Source: a virus. From it: 24,829 nucleotides of DNA. Under the pieces are notes generated by a model. That model worked only from the letters and a program-made list of their open reading frames with translations. It did no database searches and was not told the DNA's origin. The position numbers and the translations under genes are program-made. Shown one piece after another: positions 2,344-20,442 of the stretch (positions within the stretch are counted from its first letter, which is position 1; the number at the start of each line of letters is the position of its first letter). The DNA lies in the IMG/VR virus record IMGVR_UViG_3300023180_000375, positions 1 to 24,829 of that record. One strand, 5' to 3'.

Positions 2344-2816
2344 ATACCATATTTTACAGCAAGTGTGAACCTATGTCCAGTCCTAAATGCAGTCGCACGA
2401 TGTAAGATATTAGCATCAAACATTACCATACGATTAGGAAAAGGAAAGACACCTCTTATCTCATCATCAACAACAAACTGAGTTTCTCCACCATATTCTA
2501 TATTCCATTCCTCAACAGCATAGTATAAAAGTGTAACACCATGAGACCCATCAATGTGAAAGTATGGGTTCTCACTTGGCGCAAAACAATTCACATACAT
2601 TCTATTGAGATTCAAAGATGTTGGAACTAATTCTTTAGTCTCATCCCGAAACAGTTTGTATATCTCACTGGTCTCATCAATCTCATGAATCATTCCTGTA
2701 GGTAGAGAAGTGGGACTATCTCTCTCACCATAAGAATACGCAGCATTGTGACAATATTCAATCACATTCTCACAATCATCAACTGAAAGAAAGTTATCAA
2801 TGACTTGTATTTCCAT
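2340..2816 (-). CDS. 2OG-Fe(II) dioxygenase, prolyl 4-hydroxylase type
   Basis: The 158-residue protein has the double-stranded beta-helix signature of 2-oxoglutarate/Fe(II) oxygenases. An HxD pair at H87 and D89 (YFHIDGS) and a distal H139 (ILHRATAF) would hold the iron. R149 in HRFTLAVKYG is well placed to bind the 2-oxoglutarate carboxylate. GGETQF at 109-114 is the strand pattern typical of prolyl 4-hydroxylase relatives. The substrate is not evident. The gene overlaps the upstream oxygenase by 20 bases and the methyltransferase part by four (ATGA), so it belongs to a translationally coupled operon. All key residues are present, so it is probably active. Confidence 0.8.
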   Translation of the reverse strand: MEIQVIDNFLSVDDCENVIEYCHNAAYSYGERDSPTSLPTGMIHEIDETSEIYKLFRDETKELVPTSLNLNRMYVNCFAPSENPYFHIDGSHGVTLLYYAVEEWNIEYGGETQFVVDDEIRGVFPFPNRMVMFDANILHRATAFRTGHRFTLAVKYGI

Positions 2817-3432
2817 AACTCAAAACTCTTATGTTAAATGATATTGTAATTCTTGGATATTCGGTCTTTTCACAGGGTAATACACAGTGTTGAAGATATG
2901 ATGGAAACATTAGTAAGTCTCCTTCATCAACATCTGGCACATAAACCTCACCACAGTTATTAGTATCAAACTCCAAACTTAAATTACGAAGTTGTGCTAA
3001 AGGATCATGAAACTCTGGTGGTTGATGCTCTTCTTTATTAAATGAAAGAAAGTGAATACATGAAAAGTGTGCTGGATTTAATGCACTACCCAGATGGTCA
3101 TGAATTTCTTGATACTCACCATCAAAGTAAACGTTGTACCAAATATCATTTATATCTGCTGTATAATCTTTATCAAAAATCTCATCAAGACATTCTCTAT
3201 ATTGATTATCTAATAGATTCTGATTCTCCTGAAGTATTTCCATACCAGGAGGTTCTCTCTTATAAGATGTTCTAATCTTATTTGTAGTCCAATCGTCAGG
3301 AATTTCAAGGTTCTCCGATGCTTCTACAATTCCTGAAACTAAAAGATTCTTTAGTAAGTCATTATTGTTGACTTGAGTCTTAAAGATTGTTACCGGAAAG
3401 ATCTCTTTAGACCTCATCTCTTCAACGCTCAC
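2797..3432 (-). CDS. 2OG-Fe(II) oxygenase, PF13759-like
   Basis: This 211-residue protein resembles the oxygenase family Pfam calls 2OG-FeII_Oxy_5. Residues 97-130 hold the WYNVYFDGEYQEIHDHLGS-type core with H111 and H113. The distal part has MFPSYLQHCVLP with H182, followed by R194 in PRITISFNIRV, the expected 2-oxoglutarate-binding arginine and terminal strand. The first iron site reads HDH rather than a clear HxD, as in other members of this family. The start appears to be GTG at 3432, ten bases after the upstream stop; an ATG at 3417 is the alternative, and neither has a strong Shine-Dalgarno sequence. Substrate unknown. It overlaps the next oxygenase by 20 bases. Confidence 0.75.
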   Translation of the reverse strand: MSVEEMRSKEIFPVTIFKTQVNNNDLLKNLLVSGIVEASENLEIPDDWTTNKIRTSYKREPPGMEILQENQNLLDNQYRECLDEIFDKDYTADINDIWYNVYFDGEYQEIHDHLGSALNPAHFSCIHFLSFNKEEHQPPEFHDPLAQLRNLSLEFDTNNCGEVYVPDVDEGDLLMFPSYLQHCVLPCEKTEYPRITISFNIRVLSYGNTSH

Positions 3433-3442
3433 AAAGCATATT

Positions 3443-3928
3443 CTACTGAAATTCTACCATTGTGTCAAGTCTTACATCCACGAACAAAAATTCCATTGGT
3501 TTATCGGATAAGTTTGCACCATCATGAATAACACTGAGAACATCATAGACTTGACAATTACCCTCATCCCATAGTATTCTCTTATTGTCCCAAGTCATAT
3601 AACATTTCTCTCTGTCTGGTATGTTTATGGGCACTTGAATACGCTTGTAAGGTTCTCGATATATGTCTGGATCTCTATGAGGTTTCAGCACTGTTCCAGG
3701 GTCAAATAAAGAGTATCCAGAGTACAGAATATCTTCATTCTGATGTATCTGAATCACTTCATCAGTCATCAATTTCTTTCTAATTAAGATAGATTTTGCT
3801 GTACTTTTTAACCAGTAATGATGAATATCTTTATTGCAATATCCTCTGGTAGTTGGTGCTTTTTTAGTTGGAAATTTAGTCTCTTTTGCCCATTTGTATA
3901 GGGTCTTAAGGTCTTGTTGAGTGATCAT
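3443..3928 (-). CDS. Aspartyl/asparaginyl beta-hydroxylase-like protein
   Basis: The 161-residue protein fits the small aspartyl/asparaginyl beta-hydroxylase group of 2OG-Fe(II) enzymes. It has LKPHRDPD with H84 and D86, a following RIQVPINIP strand at 96-104, MTWDNK, and a distal H135 in VIHDGANLSDKPMEF, a spacing usual for this group. These enzymes hydroxylate Asp or Asn side chains in proteins, or in some phage and bacterial members act on free or peptidyl substrates; the target here is not known. The start overlaps the upstream gene by 23 bases and the stop is ten bases from the next gene. It is distinct in subfamily from the neighbouring prolyl-hydroxylase-type genes, so the cluster is not a simple tandem duplication. 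Confidence 0.78.
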   Translation of the reverse strand: MITQQDLKTLYKWAKETKFPTKKAPTTRGYCNKDIHHYWLKSTAKSILIRKKLMTDEVIQIHQNEDILYSGYSLFDPGTVLKPHRDPDIYREPYKRIQVPINIPDREKCYMTWDNKRILWDEGNCQVYDVLSVIHDGANLSDKPMEFLFVDVRLDTMVEFQ

Positions 3929-4589
3929 AATACTTAAAGTTCAAGTATGGATTGTATGGAGATGTTCTATAAAACTTCACTACTTGTTCTCTATCCTTGT
4001 AGAGTTTTATTTTAATGTGCCACGCAAATTGTTCTATATCATAATGTAAAAATTCATCACGCATTACATACTCTTTATCTATCTCAAAATTTTTTGATAA
4101 TATGTCTATAACTTCTTGATGATTTAATTGAAACGGAATGATTTCTATATTGATAGATTCATCAATAAAATCACCATCTTTTGTAAAGTCTCCTGCTAGC
4201 AGAACATCAATGAAATGTCCTTTGAACAGTTTCATGATTTTAACTGTATCTTTTAAGAATAGTGATTTGAATTTTTTGAATGTATCAAAATGAAATCCAC
4301 ACTTAAAGTTATCAGTGTATGGAAAATCTCTAGTGAAGTAAATTGTTGGGAAGTTTACATTGATGTTGTAAGCATCTAAAACATCTTTTGTAAGATAGTC
4401 TCCGTTTCTATTGAGATGGTGAATATGAAAGGCTGGATTTTTAATATCTGGACCAAGAGCAGTTATTGAAGTTTCATATTTTGATAGATCTAATCCCCTA
4501 TCCAGTTCTCCTTCAAACTTATCTACAGTGTAATGAACTGATTTATGATTTCCTTTTGAAATCTCTGTTTCATACATCCGATAAGTCAT
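3906..4589 (-). CDS. Protein of unknown function in oxygenase operon
   Basis: I do not recognise this 227-residue protein. It is rich in Lys, Phe, Asp and Tyr, with no signal peptide and no membrane segment. Single HxD-like and H-rich stretches occur (HIHHLNRNG near 55-63, GFHFDTF near 98-104, a C-terminal FLHYD), but they do not form the spacing of a 2-oxoglutarate oxygenase iron site, so I do not call it one. It sits between two oxygenase genes, starts with an ATGA overlap with the upstream stop and overlaps the next gene by 23 bases. Co-translation with the oxygenases suggests a shared process. It could be an accessory or substrate-binding protein. Confidence 0.65.
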   Translation of the reverse strand: MTYRMYETEISKGNHKSVHYTVDKFEGELDRGLDLSKYETSITALGPDIKNPAFHIHHLNRNGDYLTKDVLDAYNINVNFPTIYFTRDFPYTDNFKCGFHFDTFKKFKSLFLKDTVKIMKLFKGHFIDVLLAGDFTKDGDFIDESINIEIIPFQLNHQEVIDILSKNFEIDKEYVMRDEFLHYDIEQFAWHIKIKLYKDREQVVKFYRTSPYNPYLNFKYYDHSTRP

Positions 4590-5278
4590 TTTCCAAAAAC
4601 TTCATTATGCACGCTTTGCTTGGTCATTTTTCTAGGAGAACCATAGTAAAACCAAAATGTTCCAGAATATTTTATTCCACTAATCATTTCATTTACTTTA
4701 TGGTAAAACATCCAGTTAGAAGGGAAGATAATCACATCCCCAGTAGACGGTTTGTAAGACTTTCCTGAAAAAAACTCTATGTCTCCACCTTCATAGTTAT
4801 CGTTAAAATAAACAGTACAACTTAAAATATTTTTTCTTCTAGCAAACCATTGTGGAAATATTTCTTCTAAGAAGTCATCATAATGATAATTGAATTTAGA
4901 TCCTTTATGATATTGTCTAACCATCATTTCAGAATATCTAAACTTTTCTCTACCAAAATATGACCAATTAAAAGATCTCACTCTTTCAGAATATATTTTC
5001 AAACCCTCGGTAAAAATATATTTCTGAACACCTTCTATCGAATCTAATTCTGGATCAAAAAAAGAATCAGCAGCATCATCTAATAAACCATCTGTATATG
5101 GTTCTGATCTAAATTGTTGTAACTCTTTAATATCTTTTATTATTTCCTTACATTTTTTGCTATCAATAAATGATTTTAAGAAAACAATATGGTCTGATAA
5201 ATTTTGATTGAACTGTTTATTTTCTATTTCTTCTGTTATTTTACTTTTGTTCTGTGAAATTTTTAGATAATCTAACAT
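4586..5278 (-). CDS. 2OG-Fe(II) dioxygenase, prolyl 4-hydroxylase family
   Basis: The 230-residue protein shows the full prolyl 4-hydroxylase pattern in its second half. H132 and D134 (FNYHYDDF) and H193 (MFYHKVNEM) would bind iron; K203 in GIKYSGTFWFYY would bind 2-oxoglutarate. The intervening VYFNDNYEGGDIEFF (156-170) and PSTGDVIIFPSNW (177-189) are the hallmark strands of this family. The first 60 residues are lysine-rich and helical, lacking a recognised domain. Of the oxygenases in this operon it is the closest to classical prolyl hydroxylases by motif. Protein-bound proline or a related residue is the likely substrate (inference). It starts seven bases inside the upstream gene and ends in an ATGA overlap. 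Confidence 0.83.
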   Translation of the reverse strand: MLDYLKISQNKSKITEEIENKQFNQNLSDHIVFLKSFIDSKKCKEIIKDIKELQQFRSEPYTDGLLDDAADSFFDPELDSIEGVQKYIFTEGLKIYSERVRSFNWSYFGREKFRYSEMMVRQYHKGSKFNYHYDDFLEEIFPQWFARRKNILSCTVYFNDNYEGGDIEFFSGKSYKPSTGDVIIFPSNWMFYHKVNEMISGIKYSGTFWFYYGSPRKMTKQSVHNEVFGK

Positions 5279-5760
5279 AATTCAAACAAAGCAACACACG
5301 AGTCTTCATTAACTTTCACAATATATTCTTTATCCTGCTCAAGATCTGCATATTCTAATTCATTTATAATTTTTCCACTTACCTCACAACTTCCTTCATA
5401 ACATATCAAACATCCATAATTCTTCGAAGAACTAACCGTCCCACTATCAATTAATTTACCTTCCCATTTTTCATCTTTTTTCCAAGAATTAAAAGTTATA
5501 ATTCTTGTGTTTTCAAAACACTCACCAACCATATGATTATTCATATAGTTTCCAATATAAAAAAGTTGTTTTGGTTCTAAAGTTTCATGCGTTTCAAATT
5601 TTCCGTCAACTAAAGCATGATATCTACCACCACCACAGGATAAAAATGAATAATGTGAATATCTATTTTCTGCTGGATCATATCCAACATGATAATCATC
5701 AGTGGTATGAACACATAGATGAAACTTTGGTGCTCTGTAAGTTCTGTTGAATGACGTCAT
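5272..5760 (-). CDS. Possible cupin-like protein in oxygenase operon
   Basis: This 162-residue protein is beta-rich with no signal peptide. Its C-terminal third (about residues 115-160: YGCLICYEGSCEVSG followed by a charged turn and YIVKVNEDSCVALFEL) follows the strand rhythm of a cupin barrel, with an EGSxxVxG turn and a final VALFE strand. The middle is His- and Tyr-rich (YRYH-type SCGGGRYHALVDG at 41-53). I cannot identify a complete metal-binding cupin motif, so a catalytic role is unproven and it may be a binding or accessory barrel. It overlaps both neighbours by four to seven bases. Function unknown. Confidence 0.55.
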   Translation of the reverse strand: MTSFNRTYRAPKFHLCVHTTDDYHVGYDPAENRYSHYSFLSCGGGRYHALVDGKFETHETLEPKQLFYIGNYMNNHMVGECFENTRIITFNSWKKDEKWEGKLIDSGTVSSSKNYGCLICYEGSCEVSGKIINELEYADLEQDKEYIVKVNEDSCVALFELC

Positions 5761-6107
5761 GATAAATCAACTCTTTTCATACGTTTTGATTTTACGTCTC
5801 TAAGTTCATTAGTATCTATTGCAACCACCTTACCTATAAAATCATCATATGATTTTCCAAAGAACATCTCACTAGCAACATTAGATTCTAAAGTTACTTC
5901 TTCACTTTCCTGTTCTTTGATAATTGGCATACCTAGTTGAAATAATGATTCTATTAGATTCACTCTATCTGTATTGTCAATAAACTTGCAATTAATTACA
6001 ACTGGGCAGTAATCATCAATTGATTTTGGTGCATTTTGACGACAAAAACTTACTACGACTTGCTCTGTTTCTGGCAAATACTCAATAATTTTGAAAATGA
6101 TTTTCAT
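5757..6107 (-). CDS. Small protein of unknown function
   Basis: I do not recognise this 116-residue protein. It begins MKIIFKIIEYLPETEQVVVS, then contains a Cys-Arg pair and two short beta-like stretches; there is no membrane segment. The ATG at 6107, one base after the upstream stop, fits the coupled layout. An in-frame ATG at 6140 would overlap the upstream gene by 32 bases and add a poorly matching 11-residue lead, so I prefer 6107. No strong Shine-Dalgarno sequence is visible for either. The C-terminus is basic (KSKRMKR). Its place within an oxygenase operon suggests an accessory function but does not show one. Confidence 0.6.
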   Translation of the reverse strand: MKIIFKIIEYLPETEQVVVSFCRQNAPKSIDDYCPVVINCKFIDNTDRVNLIESLFQLGMPIIKEQESEEVTLESNVASEMFFGKSYDDFIGKVVAIDTNELRDVKSKRMKRVDLS

Positions 6108-6108
6108 G

Positions 6109-6804
6109 TCAAGTAAATGTCTTCCAATATTTAGGGTCAATATACCCCATTGAATAGTGTAAGTTTTCCTCTTTGAGAGTTAGTGTCACATCACCCACGA
6201 TTGCCAATCTTTCTCCGCTGAAGTTTTCAGTTCTTGCTTCCGTGCGATGAGTAATAGAACTTGGGAATATGACCAATGTTCCTTCTGGTGGTCCAAGAAA
6301 GAAAGATTCTGAATTATATTGATTGAACTCTTTTAACATAACTCTATCTTCAAATTCAGAAACAGCATTGCTCCCTAGGAACAAACTATTTTTCATATGT
6401 GGATTTTGAAATGATATATGATGTGAATTTGGTGGGCAACTTAAGTAGTATGCAAAAGAAATATGACTCGTGGAATGTATGTGCCACTTAATTTGATCTT
6501 TAGATTGTCTCGCTCTTGATAACCACGTTTTAGTAATTGTAAAATTGAATATATCCTTATATTCTAAGACATCATGAACATAACACTTAACATGACTAAT
6601 CACATCTTTGAATAATGGTTGAAGACTATCTTCTAGATGTATGAGTGGATTGCCTACATTTTCACTTACTGTATTATTTTTATCGTCATCTTCGTAATCG
6701 TATTTTGGATATACTTTATAGAAAGATTTTTTGTGTGTATCATGCTTTTCCATATCCCCAACATAAAAGGATACTGGAAAAGCGTCAAATATTTCATAGT
6801 TCAT
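6109..6804 (-). CDS. 2OG-Fe(II) oxygenase, PF13759-like
   Basis: This 231-residue protein is related in pattern to the 211-residue oxygenase downstream (2797-3432). The core runs from IKWHIHSTSHISFAYYL (H108, H110) to PPEGTLVIFPSSITHRTEA (H186) and ends in GERLAIVGDVTLTL with R199 as the probable 2-oxoglutarate ligand. The first iron-site pair is HxH instead of HxD, as in the related gene. The N-terminal 60 residues are acidic and charged (DYEDDDKNN), resembling a linker. The C-terminal YWKTF ending resembles a motif I associate with cyanophage oxygenases of this type. It starts with an ATGA overlap with the upstream oxygenase. Substrate unknown. Confidence 0.75.
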   Translation of the reverse strand: MNYEIFDAFPVSFYVGDMEKHDTHKKSFYKVYPKYDYEDDDKNNTVSENVGNPLIHLEDSLQPLFKDVISHVKCYVHDVLEYKDIFNFTITKTWLSRARQSKDQIKWHIHSTSHISFAYYLSCPPNSHHISFQNPHMKNSLFLGSNAVSEFEDRVMLKEFNQYNSESFFLGPPEGTLVIFPSSITHRTEARTENFSGERLAIVGDVTLTLKEENLHYSMGYIDPKYWKTFT

Positions 6805-7364
6805 GATGATTGATGTGTTCCCCAGGTTGTCAAGATATACTTCTCTCCACCAATGGGTGGATTTCCTCTATGTGTATATGCATATGATGTTGGGAACACT
6901 AATAGTCTACCTTTCTTTGGTGGAATTCTTGTATTCATATACAAGAATTCTGTTTCTCCTGCCTCAAAATCATCATTCAAATATAGTTGAACAACAACTG
7001 CTCTAGAAGATGAGATTAAATCTGAGGACTCATAATGCCAACTATGAAATCCTCCACCTTGTGGAATTTTCTTTGCCTTTACATCGTAATACAAAAGAGT
7101 TGTATTCTGTAAAACAGAGTATAGATTAGCGTAGTCTTCGATAAATGGTTTTAATTTTTCAAAAAATACTTCACCAATACAAGACCATGCTGGAAGGTCA
7201 TAATAGTGATGGAGATTTATACCTTTATGATCTACTTCATGATTATCATATCCTCTTTCAGCAAATAATAAACTATTCTTCTCCAAGTTGTTTATCATGC
7301 CGATAAACATATCACAATCTTCGGCACTAAACGCATCATCATACACTTCAATACAATTTCTCAT
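6801..7364 (-). CDS. 2OG-Fe(II) dioxygenase, prolyl 4-hydroxylase-like with HxE
   Basis: The first gene of the oxygenase operon encodes 187 residues. GGGFHSWHYES carries H110 and E112 in the place of the HxD pair; H165 (YAYTHRGNPP) is the distal iron ligand and K175 in GEKYILTTW the 2-oxoglutarate-binding lysine. The strands VQLYLNDDFEAGETEF (125-140) and PPKKGRLLVFPTS (148-160) are typical of prolyl 4-hydroxylases. Glu in place of Asp may alter or weaken iron binding, or mark a natural variant. It follows a TAAATA-type motif 20 bases upstream and heads the operon directly after the glycine-rich adhesin gene. No good Shine-Dalgarno sequence is seen. Confidence 0.78.
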   Translation of the reverse strand: MRNCIEVYDDAFSAEDCDMFIGMINNLEKNSLLFAERGYDNHEVDHKGINLHHYYDLPAWSCIGEVFFEKLKPFIEDYANLYSVLQNTTLLYYDVKAKKIPQGGGFHSWHYESSDLISSSRAVVVQLYLNDDFEAGETEFLYMNTRIPPKKGRLLVFPTSYAYTHRGNPPIGGEKYILTTWGTHQSS

Positions 7365-8458: not shown

Positions 8459-10504
8459 TTACGCTATAGTTGCAATTCCACACCACCCATTCGGTAGTTT
8501 TAATTCTAATCGAGTATTATCTGTGTTGTAGATGATAGCACCATCTTCAACACCTGTATTATCAACATTAGTTAGGTTGTTTCTTTGAGTCGTTGTGAGT
8601 TTGGGGAAGAGAACATATGCAATGAGATCTCTGTTTGGACCAAGAATATCTGCGTTATTTGCATGAGTAAAATCAATCGCACATTTTGCTCTGGTTGTTC
8701 CAATTCCAACACCAGCAACTAAACAATCAACTTGAGGTGCCGTAATACCTTGATTATTGATTATAGTTGTTTTGATACCAATGTTGCCTGCCTGGTCAAT
8801 GAAAACTCTACCACTTCCTGGAGAGTTAACTGAGAATTTTTCAGGAACAACTGCTGAAGGGAAAGAAGAATCTGTTCCAATTCCAATGAAACTGGAAGTA
8901 ACATCGATAAATGTTGAAATACCTGACTGTGCATCAACGTTACCAGTGAGATTACCAGTTACGTTTGCATTGATTGCATCTGGAAGTGTAATGTTTCCGG
9001 TAACATTCAAGTCTCCACCAACGGTTGTATCTCCAGTAACATATAACTCTGATGTAGTCACAATACCAGAACTTCTTAAAGTTCCTGCAACATCAAGTGT
9101 ATGTTCCGGTAATGTAATTCCAATACCCAAGTTTCCACCATAGGTCAATGTCATCAGTGGATTACTTTGGAAATGCCAGTAGTAAGAACCAGTATTGACT
9201 CCTACAGCACCTGATTGCAGATAGTGATTGATATTTCCATCACCCTTATTAAGAATACTGAATGAATATGGTGTGCTGTATGAACCATCATCATGACCAT
9301 ATCTCAGTAATGTATTCCATCCATTGATTGAATCAGATCTACCAATAGAAATATATGAAGATGTTTTTTCACTAATTATTTGTACCGCTGCTTGGGTAGT
9401 CACAAAACCAACTCTTCTGATGAGAATGTCGGCACCGTTTGAAGGACTATCAGAACCAATCGCAACTCTTCCAGTTAAATAATTGGTTCCAATGCCAAGA
9501 GTTGTAACTGTCGCAACACCAACAGTTAAGTCTGCAATATCTACTTCTGCATCTGGAGTGAGTGATGCTGCTGTTGATGCAGTACCTGTAATTCCACCAA
9601 TAAAACTAGATGCAGAAACAGCGTTTGCAGTGATAATGCCAACACTGATGTTTGGAGTTCCAATCAGAGATGATGCAGATGATGCAACACCAGTAAGATT
9701 TCCAATAATGTCTCCTACGAAGTTAGTTGTTGCGGTAATTATTCCAGATTGAATTGTATCGGATTCGAAATGAATGGCAGTTGCGGCAGCACCAACTGCT
9801 AAATCATTAGTTACAGTAAGACCACCACCAACTACAATTTCTTGAGGTAGTTTTGAATTTAATAATACTGGAATTCTATCGTTACTGATAGTTCCTAAGG
9901 TTAAATTATTCGCATCTAGAAGAGTTAAATCCGAACCAATACCAACGAATTTATATGCAGTTGTAATTCCACTAATTAAAACATCTCCACCAGAACTAAT
10001 ACCAACACCAGTTCCAAATCCTGCTAAAGTATTATCTGCAACTCCTCCAACTTGGAAAGTGAATCGTGGGTCTGTCGTCCCCACTCCAACATTTCCGGCA
10101 GCATAGATGCTTGTATAACCTAATCCAGCATCAATGTCAATCCACTGTGATGTTGGCATCCCCGAAAGGAATCTAGCGTCACCATAATAAGTAACAATCC
10201 CAGCAACTCCTGGAGATATTTCATACGATGTTATGATTCCTGAAGCAATACTAACTCCAGCACCAACGACACTATTTGTAAAAGTTAAATCAGTAACACT
10301 TGCAGTGCCATTTACTTCAAGAGAAGTGGAATATAATGTTGATGCTGTAGCAAATCCAGAGATTTTTGCATTCCCATAAGCATCGATTGCTTCAGTTGGA
10401 ATAGTCGTTCCTATTCCAACCAAACCAGTAGGACTTACTACAAAGTTGTCATTGTCAACTTGTACACCATTACGAAAATTAAACTGCTTGTTATAATTCG
10501 CCAT
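8459..10504 (-). CDS. Long tail fibre protein with VGIGTT repeats
   Basis: The 681-residue protein has many copies of a short beta motif centred on VGIGTT or variants (GLVGIGTTIPTEA, GNVGVGTTDP, GNLGIGITLPE, VGIGTTRAK) spread through threonine- and serine-rich beta sequence. This is the pattern of trimeric beta-helical phage fibres. The N-terminus MANYNKQFNFRNGVQVDN is typical of cyanophage fibre proteins. A C-terminal domain (about residues 600-681, ending LELKLPNGWCGIA) resembles the caps of such fibres. Unlike its 2262-residue neighbour it lacks an S74 chaperone end. It starts 15 bases after the big fibre stop, and a CTAAATA motif lies 20 bases upstream of the ATG. Confidence 0.78.
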   Translation of the reverse strand: MANYNKQFNFRNGVQVDNDNFVVSPTGLVGIGTTIPTEAIDAYGNAKISGFATASTLYSTSLEVNGTASVTDLTFTNSVVGAGVSIASGIITSYEISPGVAGIVTYYGDARFLSGMPTSQWIDIDAGLGYTSIYAAGNVGVGTTDPRFTFQVGGVADNTLAGFGTGVGISSGGDVLISGITTAYKFVGIGSDLTLLDANNLTLGTISNDRIPVLLNSKLPQEIVVGGGLTVTNDLAVGAAATAIHFESDTIQSGIITATTNFVGDIIGNLTGVASSASSLIGTPNISVGIITANAVSASSFIGGITGTASTAASLTPDAEVDIADLTVGVATVTTLGIGTNYLTGRVAIGSDSPSNGADILIRRVGFVTTQAAVQIISEKTSSYISIGRSDSINGWNTLLRYGHDDGSYSTPYSFSILNKGDGNINHYLQSGAVGVNTGSYYWHFQSNPLMTLTYGGNLGIGITLPEHTLDVAGTLRSSGIVTTSELYVTGDTTVGGDLNVTGNITLPDAINANVTGNLTGNVDAQSGISTFIDVTSSFIGIGTDSSFPSAVVPEKFSVNSPGSGRVFIDQAGNIGIKTTIINNQGITAPQVDCLVAGVGIGTTRAKCAIDFTHANNADILGPNRDLIAYVLFPKLTTTQRNNLTNVDNTGVEDGAIIYNTDNTRLELKLPNGWCGIATIA

Positions 10505-10518
10505 CTCTGGATGCTTTT

Positions 10519-13500
10519 CTAGTTATTTAGTTTGTCTTCAAGGGCAGAAACTTTGTCGTTAAGTTCCTTGATTGCTTCAATGAGAAGTGGGACAAGTTTT
10601 TCATAACGAACACCAACGTATCCATCATTTCTCGTCTTAGTAATTCCAGGTAAACCAAGTGCTTCGATTTCTTGTGCGATAACACCAGTATCTTCACCAG
10701 TTTTCTTGGATTTCTCTTCATTCCAAGTAAAAGTGTTTCCACTTATGGAGATAACCTTTGCAAGAGGATCTTCAATTCTCTTAATGTTATCCTTCAACCT
10801 TTCATCTGATGCATTAAACGCAATAACATCTCCTTCACACTTGAGTTCATTGGTTGCAATATTGAATTTCAATTGAAGGTCACGCATCAATGTAGTCATT
10901 GCTCCGTTTGCAATATTGGAGTCAATCATCATAATGGTCATCTCATCGGTGGTTAAATTACCAAGATTTTTTTGACCTTCAGTTCCATAAACTCTACATT
11001 TACCAGCCCGATCTGCTTCACCAGCAAATCTAGTTGCAGTAACAGTGTCACCATTGATAATAACGTTATCAACTCTTGCTGCACCAGCAACTACCAAATT
11101 TCCAGTAATATTTGTGTTGTTTAAAGAACTAGTACCAGTAACGCTGAAGTCATCATTCACCTGAAGGTCTTCAGTGACCACAAGATTTCCACGAACGATT
11201 GAACCACCACTTAAGGTTTCAAATTTGATTGAATTATCATAATAAAGTTTTACTCCCTGATTTTCCTGAGCAAAAATCATCGACTCAGAATTACCAGCAT
11301 TCTTAACATTAAAAGCACTTGCATTGATAATCAGTCCACCAGGACCATCATCATGAATGAAAGAGTTGTTACCATCATGATAAATCTTGAGGTCATCATC
11401 ATCGCCAAGTAACAACTTATCATTGTCACGCATATCAATGTCAGCGTTGACATTTAATTTTCCATCAAATGTAGATGTGCCATCAACTTGTAAGTTGCCA
11501 CCAAAATCAACATCTTCACAAACAAACAATCTCTTGCCGATAGCAACGCCGCCAGCAACTCTAAGAGCAGCATTTTGATCTGTGCAATTACTTGCATCTT
11601 GTTGACTCTTGATATCAACAGAACCTGCTGTTCTCAGTGAAGATGGAACTCCATTCAGAATTAAGGTCTTAGCAAGTCTTACATTTTCAGTGAATGTAAC
11701 TGGACCATCAAATTGTGAAAGGATTTGTTTAGATTTGCCACCCTCAACCAGAATTCTTTCTTTAACAACAATCTCATCAAATACGACAGAGAGTCTATTA
11801 GGATCTTCACCAGTTACAGTTGGTGTTGGAACATCAAATGTCTTCTGCTCACCAGATTGTGCAGAATACTTCGTGTTACCAATATAGAAGTCACCATCAC
11901 TGTCCATACCAGTGTAGAGAACAGTTCCACAAGAAGTTTCTTGGGATTGTGAGAGGAACTCCTCATCTTCACTCAGAGTCTTGATTTGAACCTGTGGAAG
12001 ACCAGTTGAGTAGTTACCAGGTCCATAACCAAGATATTCAAATGTATGACCAGATGCACGAAGAATAGAAGGTCTACGTGATTCGATTGGTAACAGTTTA
12101 ATCTTCTTGATTTGACTGTTTATTTCATGAGTTTCAATGATGGTTCCCATTGAACCACGAATTACTTGAATTTCATCATTATTAGTTCCAGTAAGTTCAC
12201 CAGAACTGACTCTCATGATTTCATTATCAATCTGAATATATGAACCTACGGGGAATCTAGATTCAATCTTAGTGGCGTGACCATCAGGTTTTGCAACCTT
12301 AAATTGTGAATCACTAACGCCAATCGTTTCTTTTGTTAAGAGAATATTGTTATCATAGAATGTGAGAGTTCTAGTACCAATATTCTCACCAAAACTATCC
12401 GCACTTGCATTGTTAGCAGATACACCATGCTTCATAAACTTGGAAGCATTACTAATATCTGTTGCTGTGAAAACATCAAAGGTATTTGTGGTACCTTTAG
12501 TAACACTATTGACGTAGTAATCACCCAAGTTGTTGTTACTAGAATCAAGAAGTCTTAAGGAGTTTCCAGCAATCAATCCAGATGCTTCACCCGATGTAAT
12601 TGTAAATGTATGGAGATTTGCATTTACACTATGATTTGAAATAGTTCCTACACGACCAAGAACGGTAATATATTCTCCTGGAGTTGGTAATGGATCGCCA
12701 ACAGTTCTTGCAATAGCAACTTGATTTGTGGTGTTTGTGTTGGTAATTGTGTAATAACCACCACCAGTGGTTCCAATACCAGTTACCTGAACATAATCAT
12801 TTGTTGCAATGTTAATATCTGATGCAGTAATTCCAATTCCTGCTTGAGGTGTACCACCAATCTGATTGGAGTCAAAGTAAAGAGTTTCGCCATCAGTGTA
12901 TCCAGAACCGTTTGCAGTAATTACTGCATTGGTGACTGCACCACTACTAACTTCAACAGTTGCGAGAGCACCATCCCAAACTAAGTTAATAGTCTCAAGA
13001 TTAGTTGGTGGAACTGTCTGATTATTAATCAGACGAACATTATAGTATGTTCCATCAGTATGACCAGAACCACCTATTAATGATGAGAATGTTGTAATAC
13101 CTGATAATCTATGCTCAGAAGCAAGTGTAAGAGTTGCTGTAGTATTTGTGGCGGTTACACCAGTAATTTCATTTCCCGCAGTAAAGGTCTTGAAGAACTT
13201 ATCTGTGGTTTCCCTCGTCAAACTTCTCTTCAGATCGTTAGTAACAACTTCTCCAAGAGGAGTTCTCTTAGCATAACTTGCTGCAGATGCTGGATTGTCA
13301 ACTTCATTATCCCTATCCAACTGTGGATACAGGTCAGTGATGTTTTGACTATACTTACCATCACTAAATTCACCACTAGGATCTTGAACAGCATTATTTG
13401 CATTCAGAATATAGAGATAGTAAACACCATCCTGAACATCCTTAATATATGGTGTGATTGTTTCTACACGATAGATGTAAAGATTCTCTTGTGCATCATT

Positions 13501-16500
13501 TCTTTGTAGTGTTGGAAGAGTTTTATCTCTAACATTTACATCAAAGTTTGAAAGACCTGGTGTATGAGTGATGTCGAAGATATCAACATCATTAACAGTG
13601 AAAGTATTGCTATCCTTAACGTCTAAAACTCTAAATGAACCGTTGTATCCAAAGTTATCTACAGCAGATTCATTGGTTGTACTTGTTATACCTTTAATGA
13701 TAACAATGTCATTATCTCTAAGGTTGTGTGGTCTATCTGTGCTATAAACAATTGTATTTGTTGGATTGTTGTAGCTACATGTACTGATAAACTTTGGATT
13801 TCTATTGAAATTGTAATCAGCAGTGGTTATGACATTAAGATTGAAGTCGGCAACTTCTCTGACATTAACATCACTGGATTCTTGGAGTACAAAACCACTT
13901 ACAGGGTCTCTAGCATTCTCAAGTTCTTTTGGAACAACATAACGAAGTTTATAGATTTTCTCGTCAATACTTCTTCCATCTTCAACTCTCTTAATGTATG
14001 AAATTTCAGATTCCTCAATTTCAGAATCAGAACTTGATCCAAGGAATGACCTGATCGCTGATTGAAGAGTACTATTTGATATAAATGCTGCGTGTCCTCC
14101 AGTGGCAACTGTTGTGAGGGTTGTAGTAGCGTTAGCAGGAATTGCATCAATCGCATTGATATAATCCTGCAACCAAGTTGCTTGGTTTCCACCACCAGAT
14201 GTATCATCCAATGCCTGAGTGAACAGTAATGGTGCATTATGTGTGCTGGTATAAGTCTCTAGACCGATTGATTGGTAAGGTTCGGAACCGTCACCACTGG
14301 AAGCTCCATGAATTGCTGCAATCTTTGTACATGAAAGAGAAGAAGATCCACCACCAGCACAAGTTTGGTCAAACTGAATAGGACCAGGAGCGTTTGCAAT
14401 GACACCAGCAATACCTGTTTCTAAGGTATTCATCTTGGTGACAAGTTTACCGCCTTGTGAATGACCAAACAGATAAACATCTCCTATTGATTTGGAAATG
14501 CCATTTGCTGTCATAAATGCATTCAAGGAGTTCTTAACCCAACCAACTGCTGCTCTAGCATAAGGTAAGTTATCTCCCATCAGGAAGTCTGCTTGTTCTA
14601 TGCCAGTTCCAGATAAATTATAATTTCTTGCTTGAGAAATGTTATCCTGAGGATATGCAGCAGAGAAAATAATCTTATCCCTTACATTAAGACCTGATTG
14701 ATCTAAGAAATAGTTCAGAGAAGTTTCTGCTGCATCTGCAATGGATGGACCAGTTGGACCATCAGAAAGAGTTCCGTGATAAACAACTACAACATCAACT
14801 GAACTTGATGATACACTTGTAGGTACATACAATTTACCCATAACTGGGTACGATGTAGAACCTACCGTATAAGTTTGACCATCAGATGGCGCAAGTGTAA
14901 TCGTGGTGCTTGTAATATTTGAAGTTAGTGTTTGGAAATATTGATAAAGGGCACTAGAGGAATCAACGTGTACGAACCAATTCCCCTCAACATAATCATA
15001 CTGAATTGGATGACCAATTTCACCGGCAACTTTATCAGAAACTCTACTTTCTACTCTAAGTTGATCGCCACCATAACTTGTAATGTAAATTGGTGTTGCC
15101 GCATCTGCATTGGTTTTAGATGCTGCAATCTGGAATTGAGAACCAGAGAGGGAGATTCCATCAGTTCTTCCACTATTTTTGAATGATGTAATTGCATAGT
15201 AAACTCTATTCTCTTCCAAACCTTCTGGAAGATCACCAGTCTCACTAAAGATGCGGATTGATTCACCGTTTCTTAAGTTATGACCTGTTATGGTATTGTA
15301 AATGGTCTTGGTACCAGTAGTATCTGTAGATGGTACGGTAATTCTCACACCGTTGTATACTTTTGCTGAAGTATCGGCACCAGATACTGTATTGGATGTT
15401 GTAGATTCTGGGATGTCATTTGTCATCAGAATCTTAGCACCGTGTTCTACGGTAGCACCACCAACAGTTTCTTGAAGATATACAATATCATTAACCTTGG
15501 CACCAATTCTATATCCCTGAGAAATAATCGGTGGTTCAATATCTAGATTAGTATATCCTAAGAGATAGATTCTATCTGATTTTCCAACCGTCTTCGTTTT
15601 GGCAATATCAAACTGAACCCATTCAATATCAATTTCTGGCGTCCCAATAGATCTTGGCGTCACAACACCAGTTACAAATCCCTTATCATCCTTATTAAAT
15701 GCTGATGCTTTAAATCCATCAGCAGCAAGAGAGAATTGACCAAAGTTGGAGTTTGAGTTGGTGATAGAAGCGTCACCACCACTCAGACATTCGAAGTGTT
15801 TGTGGAAACCAATAGCGAAGACCGAAACGACCTGAATAACAGCATCGTTTGACATCTTGATATGAGTTGTCTTCCACCCATCTCTATAGACAGCATCAGA
15901 GTCTAAGTGATAAACTTGTGCTTCGGTGAGAGAAGAAGAACCTCTAGACAGTAAATCTCCAGTTACTTTATTTGTTGGGAGACCATCATATCTTCTGTTC
16001 TTTGGATCGTACTTAACGAATGCACGGTCATCCTTTTGAAGAGATACAGCAGTGAACTGTGCAACGACCATGGAGCGGAAACCATCTGCTTTGCTTCCAT
16101 CGGCGTGCATACCTGCCATACCATAGACAGAACGCAATGATACGTTAAAGATATATGGAGATGCACCAGATACGGTATCAGTTTCAATAACAACAGATGC
16201 TCCTCTTCCTGGTGCAAGACCTGCTCCAGGACCAGCAGGAAGGTTTGGTCTTACATATGGAAGAGCATATGTAAATCTAGTATCACTCAGAACATCAACA
16301 ACTTTGGTTGAGATATTATAATCTTCTACATTGATATTTCTAATCTTAATAGGTGTTCCTGCATTAAGATCGTGTGCAGTTTGAGTTGTAACTGTGACGA
16401 TAGTTCCAGGAGTTGCACCATCACCAGAAATGATGCTAGAAATAACTACAGGGTCAGTTGCAAATGCGCCAACGATTTCCCATTCTGGTCTTTGCTTTGA

Positions 16501-17307
16501 GAAACCAAGAGCATCAACTGGGAATTTCTGGTCAATTTCTCTACCAGATGCTCTATTGAATGCATTACTAATCTTGCTGTAATACATGTCAAGGTCGGTG
16601 AGTTGATATCCACCAGGGATATTGACACCATCTGCATATTCAAAGCAAGTAACTTTGTGGTGAGAGAATGTAGGTTTTGTTCTATTGTTTGTAGAGAAAT
16701 CTCTGGGGTCAGTATAGACTAATCCAGTTTCATCACCATCAAAGAAGGTGAACTGCCAGAAATAACAAGCACCAGTAACTCTAAAGATTGCAGTGCTTGG
16801 TGCATCTGGATCAGTTGGGTTTGGAACATACTTTGGTCTAACCTTTGTCTTTCTTAAGTCAAGACCAACGATAGAAGTACCACGAGGAATAATAATACCA
16901 CCGTTGATACTATTGAACTTATACAGGATGTTATCTTCCTGTGTAAGGTCGAAGTTAGAATTAAGTGTAAGAGTTAATTCATTTTGTGCAGCAGACTCAG
17001 AACCTCCAGGAGCAACTGCTGTTGCAACACCACCATTATCCTTGATAGCATATCCAGGTCTGTTGTCAATCAAGTGCTCACCAGGGAACACAAGGATAGT
17101 AGTTTTCTCTACCAGGTCGTTGTCATCACCTCTCAGATAAGAGAATCTTGCCGATTCCAGCAGTGCTCTCTGAATGGTTTTGAAAGGTTTCGTTAACGAA
17201 TTACCTTGGTTCTCAATACCATCAGTGGAGTCAAGGTCGTTAGGGTTAACGTAAAGAATGCGACCTTCGGCATTCTTGATAAAGTTCTCAAGCTTATTAA
17301 GAGGCAT
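10519..17307 (-). CDS. Giant tail fibre with inserted alpha/beta-hydrolase and S74 chaperone end
   Basis: This 2262-residue protein is the largest gene here. The N-terminus resembles pectate-lyase-type beta-helical fibres (GRILYVNPND, then KPFKTIQRALLESAR near residues 40-54). The middle is beta-rich. Residues of about 805-1095 form an apparent alpha/beta hydrolase (see the separate entry). The fibre type resumes at ISYIKRVEDGRS. Residues of about 1880-2100 carry shaft motifs such as LKIYHDGNNSFIHDDG and KLYYDNSIKFET. The end (about 2165-2262) is an S74 intramolecular chaperone: S2167 and K2172 in SDERLKDNI form the self-cleavage dyad, with a heptad-like helix at the tip (EAIKELNDKVSALEDKLNN). 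Trimerisation and self-cleavage are inferred from the family. An AATAAATA motif is 33 bases before the ATG. Confidence 0.85.
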   Translation of the reverse strand: MPLNKLENFIKNAEGRILYVNPNDLDSTDGIENQGNSLTKPFKTIQRALLESARFSYLRGDDNDLVEKTTILVFPGEHLIDNRPGYAIKDNGGVATAVAPGGSESAAQNELTLTLNSNFDLTQEDNILYKFNSINGGIIIPRGTSIVGLDLRKTKVRPKYVPNPTDPDAPSTAIFRVTGACYFWQFTFFDGDETGLVYTDPRDFSTNNRTKPTFSHHKVTCFEYADGVNIPGGYQLTDLDMYYSKISNAFNRASGREIDQKFPVDALGFSKQRPEWEIVGAFATDPVVISSIISGDGATPGTIVTVTTQTAHDLNAGTPIKIRNINVEDYNISTKVVDVLSDTRFTYALPYVRPNLPAGPGAGLAPGRGASVVIETDTVSGASPYIFNVSLRSVYGMAGMHADGSKADGFRSMVVAQFTAVSLQKDDRAFVKYDPKNRRYDGLPTNKVTGDLLSRGSSSLTEAQVYHLDSDAVYRDGWKTTHIKMSNDAVIQVVSVFAIGFHKHFECLSGGDASITNSNSNFGQFSLAADGFKASAFNKDDKGFVTGVVTPRSIGTPEIDIEWVQFDIAKTKTVGKSDRIYLLGYTNLDIEPPIISQGYRIGAKVNDIVYLQETVGGATVEHGAKILMTNDIPESTTSNTVSGADTSAKVYNGVRITVPSTDTTGTKTIYNTITGHNLRNGESIRIFSETGDLPEGLEENRVYYAITSFKNSGRTDGISLSGSQFQIAASKTNADAATPIYITSYGGDQLRVESRVSDKVAGEIGHPIQYDYVEGNWFVHVDSSSALYQYFQTLTSNITSTTITLAPSDGQTYTVGSTSYPVMGKLYVPTSVSSSSVDVVVVYHGTLSDGPTGPSIADAAETSLNYFLDQSGLNVRDKIIFSAAYPQDNISQARNYNLSGTGIEQADFLMGDNLPYARAAVGWVKNSLNAFMTANGISKSIGDVYLFGHSQGGKLVTKMNTLETGIAGVIANAPGPIQFDQTCAGGGSSSLSCTKIAAIHGASSGDGSEPYQSIGLETYTSTHNAPLLFTQALDDTSGGGNQATWLQDYINAIDAIPANATTTLTTVATGGHAAFISNSTLQSAIRSFLGSSSDSEIEESEISYIKRVEDGRSIDEKIYKLRYVVPKELENARDPVSGFVLQESSDVNVREVADFNLNVITTADYNFNRNPKFISTCSYNNPTNTIVYSTDRPHNLRDNDIVIIKGITSTTNESAVDNFGYNGSFRVLDVKDSNTFTVNDVDIFDITHTPGLSNFDVNVRDKTLPTLQRNDAQENLYIYRVETITPYIKDVQDGVYYLYILNANNAVQDPSGEFSDGKYSQNITDLYPQLDRDNEVDNPASAASYAKRTPLGEVVTNDLKRSLTRETTDKFFKTFTAGNEITGVTATNTTATLTLASEHRLSGITTFSSLIGGSGHTDGTYYNVRLINNQTVPPTNLETINLVWDGALATVEVSSGAVTNAVITANGSGYTDGETLYFDSNQIGGTPQAGIGITASDINIATNDYVQVTGIGTTGGGYYTITNTNTTNQVAIARTVGDPLPTPGEYITVLGRVGTISNHSVNANLHTFTITSGEASGLIAGNSLRLLDSSNNNLGDYYVNSVTKGTTNTFDVFTATDISNASKFMKHGVSANNASADSFGENIGTRTLTFYDNNILLTKETIGVSDSQFKVAKPDGHATKIESRFPVGSYIQIDNEIMRVSSGELTGTNNDEIQVIRGSMGTIIETHEINSQIKKIKLLPIESRRPSILRASGHTFEYLGYGPGNYSTGLPQVQIKTLSEDEEFLSQSQETSCGTVLYTGMDSDGDFYIGNTKYSAQSGEQKTFDVPTPTVTGEDPNRLSVVFDEIVVKERILVEGGKSKQILSQFDGPVTFTENVRLAKTLILNGVPSSLRTAGSVDIKSQQDASNCTDQNAALRVAGGVAIGKRLFVCEDVDFGGNLQVDGTSTFDGKLNVNADIDMRDNDKLLLGDDDDLKIYHDGNNSFIHDDGPGGLIINASAFNVKNAGNSESMIFAQENQGVKLYYDNSIKFETLSGGSIVRGNLVVTEDLQVNDDFSVTGTSSLNNTNITGNLVVAGAARVDNVIINGDTVTATRFAGEADRAGKCRVYGTEGQKNLGNLTTDEMTIMMIDSNIANGAMTTLMRDLQLKFNIATNELKCEGDVIAFNASDERLKDNIKRIEDPLAKVISISGNTFTWNEEKSKKTGEDTGVIAQEIEALGLPGITKTRNDGYVGVRYEKLVPLLIEAIKELNDKVSALEDKLNN
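10524..10530 (-). promoter_or_regulatory. Late-type promoter motif of 681-residue fibre gene
   Basis: CTAAATA on the minus strand lies 20 bases before the ATG at 10504, inside the last codons of the large fibre gene. The motif, flanking AAC and distance equal those before the oxygenase operon. It is a weaker match to TATAAATA than the sites near 17340, 17669 and 21557. Confidence 0.4.
14024..14895 (-). other. Alpha/beta-hydrolase domain inside giant tail fibre
   Basis: Residues of about 805-1095 of the fibre read as a whole esterase-like domain. GQTYTVGSTSYPVMGKLYVP opens it at residue 810. VVVYHG gives an oxyanion-type HG at H844-G845. The nucleophile elbow GHSQGG has S950, the acid strand LDDTSGGG has D1034 and D1035, and GGHAAF has H1072. 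Order and spacing fit a serine hydrolase of the polyhydroxybutyrate-depolymerase/feruloyl-esterase kind. Two cysteines bracket a loop (TCAGGGSSSLSC) after the elbow. Low-complexity serine and glutamate sequence (SSSDSEIEES) marks the exit. Cyanophage fibre sequence continues on both sides, so this looks like an insertion into a loop. A role in cutting ester groups on a host surface polymer is inference. Confidence 0.82.
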
Positions 17308-18372: not shown

Positions 18373-20442
18373 TCACTCAAAAATAAGAATAACTAATCCG
18401 TTTTGACTGCTGCCACCATACCCAGAAACATAGTTCTCGTCATTAGTATCAGCGGCATCTACACCACCTGCAGTTCCCGATGAACCATTTTGAGAAACTG
18501 TGCTTGTCCAGGAACCATTAATGATTCCTGAACCTCCACCTCCACCTCCACCAGAACAATTAGTGGGTTCAAATCCACCGCCGCCACCACCACCATAGTA
18601 TCCAGCACCACCACCACCGCCACGCTTTCCTTGATAAGTTCCAGCACCACCACTGGCACCACCACTATTACGATAATAAGCATTATTGCTTGCGTGTGGA
18701 GAACTCCAAGGTAATCCAGCACTTGCTGCTGCACCACTTGTAGAACCTGCAATACCACCAGCACTTTGTGTACCACCTTGACCTACCGTAGGTGCTCCAT
18801 ATCCACCAGTACCAGCACCACCAGGTCCATTTCCACCACCATATCCACCATTACTTGCCTGACCAGCGCCACCACCTCCGCCAGCAAGCATAAAGTTAGA
18901 TCCATACTTCACTCCAGAATATCCACCACCTCTTCCTGCACCAGAACCAGACATTCCTGTTGGTGATCCTACTCCTGCACCACCAACATATACCACCACA
19001 GTATCCCCACCAGTGACTGCTATTGTTCCTTCAACGTGACCACCAGAACCACCACTAAAGTTTCCACCATCAAGTCCTACTCCGTTTGGTGGACACTCAC
19101 CAATGCCAGTTCCACCAGCACCCCATACCTTTGCAGTCATAGATGTAGAAGTTGCTGGAACATTTACAGTATATGCTTCATTTCCACCTGTCCCTCTATA
19201 TTCCAAAGCAATAATACCTTGGAGGACAATGCGAGATGGATATTGTAAAGAACCTGCACCTCCTCTTTCTGGATGATTCTGTCCAGATGCAAATCCACCA
19301 GTAAATCCATTGATTACCGACGAATGAACATATCCTGAACCACCACCGCCACCAGAAGCGGCACGAGTCCCAGAACCATAGTCATCGCCACCGCCTCCAC
19401 CGCCGCCTCCATAGTATCCAGCTCCGCCACCGCCACCACCAGACCAGTTTGGATATGAACCAGAACCTTGTCCACCAGTACCACCTTGAAGTGCAGAACC
19501 AGGAGTTGCGCCAGTACCAGAACCACCACCAGCACCACCACCTCCACTCTGCGAACCTCCACCGCCACCAGTAGAACCAGTTGTGGAGTCTGGTGAGTTT
19601 CCTCCTCCACTACCAGAAGGACCACCACCATTACCACCAGGAGCACTACCAGAACCTCCAACTGGTGGTGCTCCTCCTCCACCACCACCCGCAATCAAAA
19701 GTGCATTTGCTTGACTGATAGTTGATGACGAAAAGATTCCTGCAAGACCACCACCATTTTCTCCACGATTTAATCCACTACCACTTCCAGGTCTTGTAGG
19801 TCCACCACCATAGTTCAAGACCATATGTAGCGTATCGCCTTGATTTAAGTTAAAAGTTCCATACGAATATCCACCTAAACCACCATACGCATATCCACCT
19901 GCTTGACCCCAAATAAATGCTTTGAGTTTTACATTTGTTGCCGCAGTATATGATCGTGTTCCTGAACCATCTAGGATAAGGCTGCCACCAGAACCAAAAT
20001 CATGAAATGATGGACTTCCATTTCCATCAATAACTTCACCAACGCCAGTTGCTTGTGCTCCTTGAATATAAACACTACTGGTAGTATCTAAAATATTTCC
20101 AGTAATAGAGTTTTCTCTGATTTGTACTACAAAAGCTTCCCCATCTTCAACTACACCATCTGCTGCAACAGTTTTATTGAAAGAACCTGTATCATTGTTG
20201 ACTGTAAAAGAACCAGAAAGAGAGTTATCTGTAAAATCTGATGCAGTTATTGTTCCTAATGTCCCACTGATAGTGTAATATAATGTTGTCCCATCTGATA
20301 CACCATCAGTCGTTACAGTAACTGTAATCTGTGTACCTTCAATTAGATTGGTTGGAGTAACAGTTGCTTCTGCACTAATAGCAGTTCCTCCAAATCCATA
20401 TCCAGTAACATTAATTGACGATTGTGTTCCAAGTATTGGCAT
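18373..20442 (-). CDS. Large glycine-rich virion protein with Calx-beta-like domain
   Basis: The 689-residue protein begins with a short anchor (MPILGTQSSINVTGYGFGG). Next comes a Calx-beta-like domain at about 25-115 (NLIEGTQITVTV, then SDGTTLYYTISG, ASDF, and VEDGEAFVVQIREN). The rest is two successive glycine-rich halves (about 140-410 and 410-689). Each opens with a beta segment, has runs of up to eight glycines, and contains the block GAGYYGGGGGGG, so the protein appears to have arisen by internal duplication. Such proteins form adhesins or decorate the tail or capsid of cyanophages. Its ATG overlaps the upstream stop (TAATG), placing it in the baseplate operon. Cell-surface contact is likely but unproven. 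Confidence 0.7.
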   Translation of the reverse strand: MPILGTQSSINVTGYGFGGTAISAEATVTPTNLIEGTQITVTVTTDGVSDGTTLYYTISGTLGTITASDFTDNSLSGSFTVNNDTGSFNKTVAADGVVEDGEAFVVQIRENSITGNILDTTSSVYIQGAQATGVGEVIDGNGSPSFHDFGSGGSLILDGSGTRSYTAATNVKLKAFIWGQAGGYAYGGLGGYSYGTFNLNQGDTLHMVLNYGGGPTRPGSGSGLNRGENGGGLAGIFSSSTISQANALLIAGGGGGGAPPVGGSGSAPGGNGGGPSGSGGGNSPDSTTGSTGGGGGSQSGGGGAGGGSGTGATPGSALQGGTGGQGSGSYPNWSGGGGGGAGYYGGGGGGGGDDYGSGTRAASGGGGGSGYVHSSVINGFTGGFASGQNHPERGGAGSLQYPSRIVLQGIIALEYRGTGGNEAYTVNVPATSTSMTAKVWGAGGTGIGECPPNGVGLDGGNFSGGSGGHVEGTIAVTGGDTVVVYVGGAGVGSPTGMSGSGAGRGGGYSGVKYGSNFMLAGGGGGAGQASNGGYGGGNGPGGAGTGGYGAPTVGQGGTQSAGGIAGSTSGAAASAGLPWSSPHASNNAYYRNSGGASGGAGTYQGKRGGGGGAGYYGGGGGGGFEPTNCSGGGGGGGSGIINGSWTSTVSQNGSSGTAGGVDAADTNDENYVSGYGGSSQNGLVILIFE

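Follow-up and report, generated by a model that had tools for sequence, protein, structure and literature searches.

How a domain with the motifs of a serine hydrolase came to stand in the middle of a phage tail fibre, whether it is complete there, and what it would do at the host surface are the questions raised by the window (the whole stretch of DNA analysed here, a 24.8-kb virus record covering the tail region of a T4-like cyanophage). The answer we favor, and consider rather probable, is that a serine esterase has been inserted into the fibre shaft, that it belongs to a phage-borne family moving among tail proteins in at least three chain orders, and that it would be active at the host surface.

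The inserted domain and its fold

The fibre matches the phrog_529 tail fibre family over residues 1 to 813, neighboring genes gave matches to baseplate hub/tail lysozyme and to tail proteins, and upstream of the fibre there is a cluster of tRNAs (Leu-Met-Ile). Two large structural open reading frames of the window have partial family matches only (18373–20442, minus strand, to a fragment of phrog_1922; 8459–10504, minus strand, to the N terminus of phrog_3269). The features of the fibre are as follows.

10519–17307, minus strand: tail fibre gene, encoding the 2262-aa protein that contains the insert; matches phrog_4527 and the phrog_529 tail fibre family (E = 0)
14953–17307, minus strand: N-terminal part of the fibre, residues 1–785, continuous with insert-free cyanophage fibres (59 to 62% identity to P-SSM2, AG-345-F15 and S-T4)
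14026–14919, minus strand: inserted alpha/beta-hydrolase domain, residues ~797–1094, in canonical (unpermuted) order; from AlphaFold, Foldseek and empty sites in related fibres
14770–14778, minus strand: HGT oxyanion motif, residues 844–846; invariant in 30 sequences
14449–14466, minus strand: GHSQGG nucleophile elbow, residues 948–953, with S950 at 14458–14460; invariant, between beta5 and the next helix in the model
14329–14361, minus strand: cysteine pair C983 and C993; both invariant
14272–14304, minus strand: loop cut in relatives with permutation A, residues ~1002–1012, at the lid position between beta6 and beta7; within the low-confidence model stretch 187–227
14203–14205, minus strand: predicted catalytic acid D1035; invariant in 30 of 30 sequences, D1034 not
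14134–14145, minus strand: point cut in relatives with permutation B (S-SCSM1 and L004 to L006), residues ~1055–1058, before beta8; from sequence comparison of relatives
14092–14094, minus strand: predicted catalytic histidine H1072; invariant in 30 sequences, in the loop after beta8 in the model
10657–10809, minus strand: C-terminal Peptidase_S74 intramolecular chaperone, residues 2167–2217; Pfam PF13884, E = 8.6e-12

The sequence-only reading had claimed a complete serine-hydrolase domain embedded in the fibre at about residues 805–1095, and the empty sites in relatives, the predicted fold and the esterase neighbors in structural searches all bear this out. The P-SSM2, S-T4 and AG-345-F15 fibres align with the window fibre from residue 1 to ~785–791 and again from 1083–1096, with essentially nothing between, so the domain region does not align with ordinary fibre sequence of related phages. 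The L013 fibre is 79% identical to that of the window over residues 1–797 and 66% identical over 1077–1947, is empty at the window's site, and carries a permuted domain instead near its C-terminal part (L013 residue 1667, near window residue 1947). Because insert-free related fibres align on both flanks, the status of the domain as an insertion is well supported. Across these comparisons alignment ends at ~785–797 and restarts at ~1077–1096, giving a compact domain of ~290 aa in the shaft with bounds closer to ~797–1094 than to those first proposed; the fibre sequence described on either side (VHVDSSSALYQYF before the domain, ISYIKRVEDGRS after it) was found in place. No convincing direct repeats or target-site duplications were found on searching the two ends of the insert. 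An intein-like origin was considered and rejected, given the hydrolase fold, the absence of a splicing role and ends that vary among canonical copies.

The motifs occur in the order originally described (HG at 844–845, GHSQGG at 948–953 with S950, DD at 1034–1035 and H1072). Conservation over 30 relatives, some only ~50% identical, left 55 of 280 columns invariant, among them HGT, GHSQGG, D1035, H1072 and the two cysteines, C983 and C993, which may form a disulfide. Either D1034 or D1035 had been put forward as the acid; relatives carry G, N or S at the former position, so only D1035 stands. An alpha/beta hydrolase has a parallel central sheet, a nucleophile elbow after beta5, an acid after beta7 (or beta6) and a histidine after beta8, and this is the topology of the AlphaFold model of the window domain (alignment of 24 rows; mean pLDDT 80.5, pTM 0.83), in which S950 occupies the turn from beta5 into the next helix, and D1035 and H1072 follow beta7 and beta8, respectively (in model numbering, strand 148–157/S158/helix 159, strand 235–240/D243 and strand 270–275/H280). 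The structure prediction that had been suggested as a check thus placed all three residues, by topology, where a triad is expected. With this model as query, Foldseek matched 781 PDB chains at E ≤ 0.001, the best having E = 1.3e-8 and a probability of 1.00. The Pf2001 esterase headed the list, which also contained acylaminoacyl peptidases as well as cinnamoyl and feruloyl esterases; the structural-match test for the superfamily also counts 42 viral hits at E ≤ 0.001. Since 36 viral records carry the domain and AlphaFold gives a hydrolase topology, a chance motif is excluded, and an alpha/beta-hydrolase fold with S950, D1035 and H1072 as the predicted triad is well supported by the model.

Sequence families say less. 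No alpha/beta-hydrolase model of Pfam (best Abhydrolase_6, 14.9 bits against a cut-off of 26.3) or NCBIfam reaches its cut-off for the phage domain, relatives likewise gave weak E-values only, and a PDB profile search reached a best E of about 0.1; because no such model reaches its cut-off, the substrate class is not readable from family membership. Assignment to the SGNH hydrolases was rejected, the nucleophile lying in GHSQGG rather than GDS and the fold being different. The polyhydroxybutyrate depolymerases, earlier named as a comparison, dropped out, with only LpqC (3d0k, E = 0.12 over 22 residues) matched by sequence and none among the best 50 Foldseek matches.

Relatives and insertion sites

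Two features had been overlooked in the earlier reading, namely the promiscuity of the domain and the circular permutation of most of its relatives. Relatives were gathered from viral contigs in three scans, two using window-family queries and the third a divergent query set; S-SCSM1 was added to the records so obtained. The search for the same insertion elsewhere found the domain in 36 classifiable viral records, many of them near-identical copies, which flank comparison resolved into ~18 distinct insertion sites in cyanophage virion proteins (a count that depends on judgement of flank similarity; many of the contigs are fragmentary). The host proteins comprise phrog_529 fibres (two sites), collar-domain proteins, phrog_4924 short tail fibres, baseplate or virion proteins, two subtilase-bearing proteins and a podovirus nozzle protein (PF25675).

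The nozzle insertion is exact: the S-RIP1 sequence MPHILSNT-GATTFTF corresponds in L008 to a 300-residue domain flanked by MPHELVDT and ASTFTF, and the surrounding protein is 51% identical on one side and 62% on the other. In L008 (786–4331) the permuted putative esterase thus sits inside the nozzle protein, its S-RIP1 homologue (L035) is uninterrupted, and HQ317388.1 has no annotation for the S-RIP1 nozzle gene. The L016 collar protein has an insert-free counterpart in Sf-FR1, and one in S-CAM1 points the same way for L011, its N-terminal side being weakly aligned; a search for such a counterpart of the small S-SCSM1 protein found none. The 250-kb contig bearing L011 has psbA/psbD-type genes, as expected of a cyanophage. 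Two virion proteins (L011:7590–10391 and L024:6048–9035) join a Peptidase_S8 subtilase and the permuted domain, which would make two surface-acting enzymes per chain.

A bacterial source was sought among genome contigs: the window-family query found none, and the divergent set found a single real relative, L061 (L061:7722–8681), a free-standing protein of 327 aa, ~30% identical, encoded among ordinary bacterial genes of a Parcubacteria MAG. A search of 295 genomes around L061 found no second homologue in the other 294. Two further candidates (L062 and L063) were discarded as short lipase-like matches around GHSQG only.

Chain orders and their direction of change

Among the 36 viral records, eight have the canonical order (the window, L002, L003, L007, L056, L057, L059 and L060). 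In the 24 records of type A, domain residues ~204–289 come first and residues 1 to ~200 follow in one open frame, so that the C-terminal third stands ahead of the N-terminal two-thirds and the cut lies in the beta6-beta7 lid loop; in the four of type B (S-SCSM1 and L004 to L006), residues ~253–289 precede 1 to ~252 and the cut lies before beta8. The beta6-beta7 loop is the usual place of the lid or cap in alpha/beta hydrolases (PMC11878206), and the type A opening loop falls in a low-confidence stretch of the canonical model. In all 26 permuted sequences measured, the old C and N termini are connected by a linker of 34 to 37 residues, counted from the Arg motif of the last helix as far as YPVMG, and its sequence is similar in types A and B (GSTNPxGxIxNxQFTI). 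Closely related copies (about 60 to 80% identical) occur in the canonical and the two permuted orders: the permuted L017 domain sits at the window's own site in a homologous fibre, and canonical L007 and permuted L019 to L023 share a host protein and nearly the same site.

With a rotated order, joined old termini and a retained fold, the family has the properties of a natural circular permutant, the window copy itself being unpermuted. AlphaFold predicted the permuted L017 chain with similar confidence (pLDDT 81.5, pTM 0.83), and the best five PDB matches to this model were engineered circularly permuted HaloTags, an independent sign that the permuted fold was correctly read. A duplicated domain in L017 was considered and set aside as a low-identity alignment extension. 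Most permuted loci are metagenomic contigs, which might suggest that their order arose falsely in assembly or in the alignment of repetitive fibre sequence; we find this barely credible, however, given that about a dozen different sites show permutation A in an open frame, with a linker of near-constant length, that permutation B occurs in a cultured, sequenced isolate (S-SCSM1) and three more contigs, and that the permuted chain folds confidently.

In a tree with L061 as outgroup (a very long branch), L061, L056, L057 and the L059/L060 pair are basal and all canonical; because the bacterial outgroup and the basal viral forms share this order, the tree places it as ancestral and the window copy as one of the old type. 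Apart from L027, which falls outside with starred support, types A and B group together (support 93/85, not starred). A single clade for all type A was rejected by the AU test (p = 0.0002) and one for A plus B was not (p = 0.25), which on this tree sets the minimum at two permutation events; a third is likely, and one permutation type may have arisen twice (L027).

Tandem duplication followed by trimming is the classical route to a permuted protein. The same route may apply here, and the near-constant linker in both types suggests that the permutants derive from one closed form. Short in-register repeats were seen at the ends of permuted domains (KVAA around 7995–8040 in L009; NADVTLTAV/TADQTLNPL in the type B copy L005), and these KVAA and NADVTL/TADQTL overlaps hint weakly at remnants of tandem duplication.

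Probable role and comparison with known systems

Alongside the computed results (the insertion, the fold, the invariant triad residues, the many host proteins, the permutations and the canonical order of outgroup and basal forms), activity and substrate are argued by analogy, and the window domain is likely an esterase that trims acyl groups on the picocyanobacterial surface. Peptidase_S74 chaperones belong to trimeric fibres; since one is present here, the window fibre would be a trimer, which suggests three enzymes per fibre. The virion would then display three active copies on each fibre, and at the cyanobacterial surface the enzyme would most likely hydrolyse acyl or acetyl esters of LPS or capsule, allowing the phage to attach or detach. 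The S-SCSM1 homologue carries the GenBank note "virion protein", a label that concerns this permuted homologue rather than the window protein; 45 virion proteins of S-SCSM1 were identified by mass spectrometry (PMC9602691), and SGNH esterases occur in receptor-binding proteins (PMC13123978). Because the host proteins touch the cell, two of them carry a subtilase, the homologue bears this virion note and the SGNH enzymes provide a precedent, a surface-trimming esterase is favored, and by that analogy deacylation of surface polysaccharide at attachment is plausible.

Other activities were weighed against this one. An S9-like peptidase or aminopeptidase cutting a host surface protein or S-layer would accord with the cellular relative L061, which passes the Peptidase_S9 cut-off, with the acylaminoacyl peptidases among the Foldseek matches and with the subtilase in two host proteins; we think it improbable, because the best single match and most of the top of that list are esterases, the propeller domain normally present in S9 enzymes is absent, and the phage domain itself falls below S9 in Pfam. 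Similarly unlikely is a phospholipase or lipase that opens the outer membrane at injection instead of trimming polysaccharide: the nozzle and baseplate-type insertions do lie near the injection point in some phages and the permuted model resembles cutinases, but most sites are in fibres and collar-type proteins, which touch the cell first, and no lipase family was matched. Many phage fibre insertions are adhesion modules, and the domain might have ceased to be an enzyme and been kept as a folded decoration or adhesin. The invariance of S950, D1035, H1072 and HGT in 30 of 30 sequences, across canonical and permuted forms in unrelated hosts and while ~80% of columns vary, makes such a loss of function quite improbable.

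The permutations may have a structural rationale. Cutting the ring elsewhere would tether a different face of the enzyme (type A at the lid loop beside the active site, the window form at the old termini), and alternative tethering may fit one enzyme to different fibre geometries, our proposed reason why permutation was tolerated or favored. The fuller proposal, in which marine cyanophages share the esterase as a "topological ring" that has been cut at three or more positions and has entered unrelated tail proteins at about 18 sites, permutation choosing the tethered face and one type perhaps arising twice (L027), is evenly balanced in our judgement.

Fibre-borne serine esterases are known from the SGNH family (gp63.1 of E. 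coli phage G7C; receptor-binding proteins of Klebsiella prophages, PMC13123978), which are thought to deacetylate surface polysaccharide at attachment. This is a comparison of how they would work; the SGNH enzymes have a GDS motif, whereas the window domain is a predicted GHSQGG alpha/beta hydrolase, and members of its family are inserted within fibres and frequently permuted. The window form has its fold, triad order and elbow in common with feruloyl/cinnamoyl esterases (3pf8, 7xrh), the Pf2001 esterase (5lcn), BD-FAE and S9 relatives, but identity is 11 to 17%, the phage domain lies below all Pfam/NCBIfam cut-offs and in virion proteins, and its permuted forms use the lid loop as the attachment point. 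The closest structural parallel to the permuted model is circularly permuted HaloTag (8b6p, 8b6n, 6u2m), likewise opened in the cap/lid region with a linker joining the old termini, although that tag is a man-made haloalkane dehalogenase, whereas phages have several permuted forms of natural origin. The PHB depolymerase of Penicillium funiculosum (2d80) is another alpha/beta hydrolase permuted in nature, a free secreted enzyme absent from the best 50 structural and from any significant sequence matches. It is listed only for its crevice in PMC11878206.

When an enzyme is naturally permuted, the change is usually a single one that separates distant families. Promiscuous Ig-like phage domains shuffle among tail proteins. 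Domain mosaicism of phage proteins, with one domain shuffled among unrelated tail proteins, has been described (PMC10684548), but "permut" is absent from that text and no permuted enzyme is reported there. Searches of the open-access literature turned up no account of circular permutation in an enzyme of phage fibres; fibre-borne enzymes as such are already known, and none that is both mobile and repeatedly permuted came up in these papers. Here canonical and two permuted orders occur, sometimes at the same fibre site, beside insert-free relatives, and because proteins of near-identical sequence exist in different orders, both the route of permutation and the reason for it are directly testable. 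Alpha/beta hydrolases would thereby join the enzymes mounted on tailed-phage fibres, in phages whose hosts, the most abundant photosynthetic bacteria, have surface receptors about which little is known.

A close comparison is also offered by SSCSM1_235 of the Synechococcus phage S-SCSM1 (QFG06499.1, annotated "tail fiber protein"), a member of the same domain family at 66 to 68% identity. It differs in being a small separate virion protein permuted before beta8, and its record names neither hydrolase nor permutation. A few genes past this copy S-SCSM1 has a row of oxygenase genes (SSCSM1_240-243), and the window has a similar one beyond the fibre cluster (2797–7364, minus strand), with four 2OG-Fe(II) oxygenase genes (2797–3432, 4586–5278, 6109–6804 and 6801–7364) and, within the row, an Asp/Arg-hydroxylase-type gene at 3443–3928 (minus strand).
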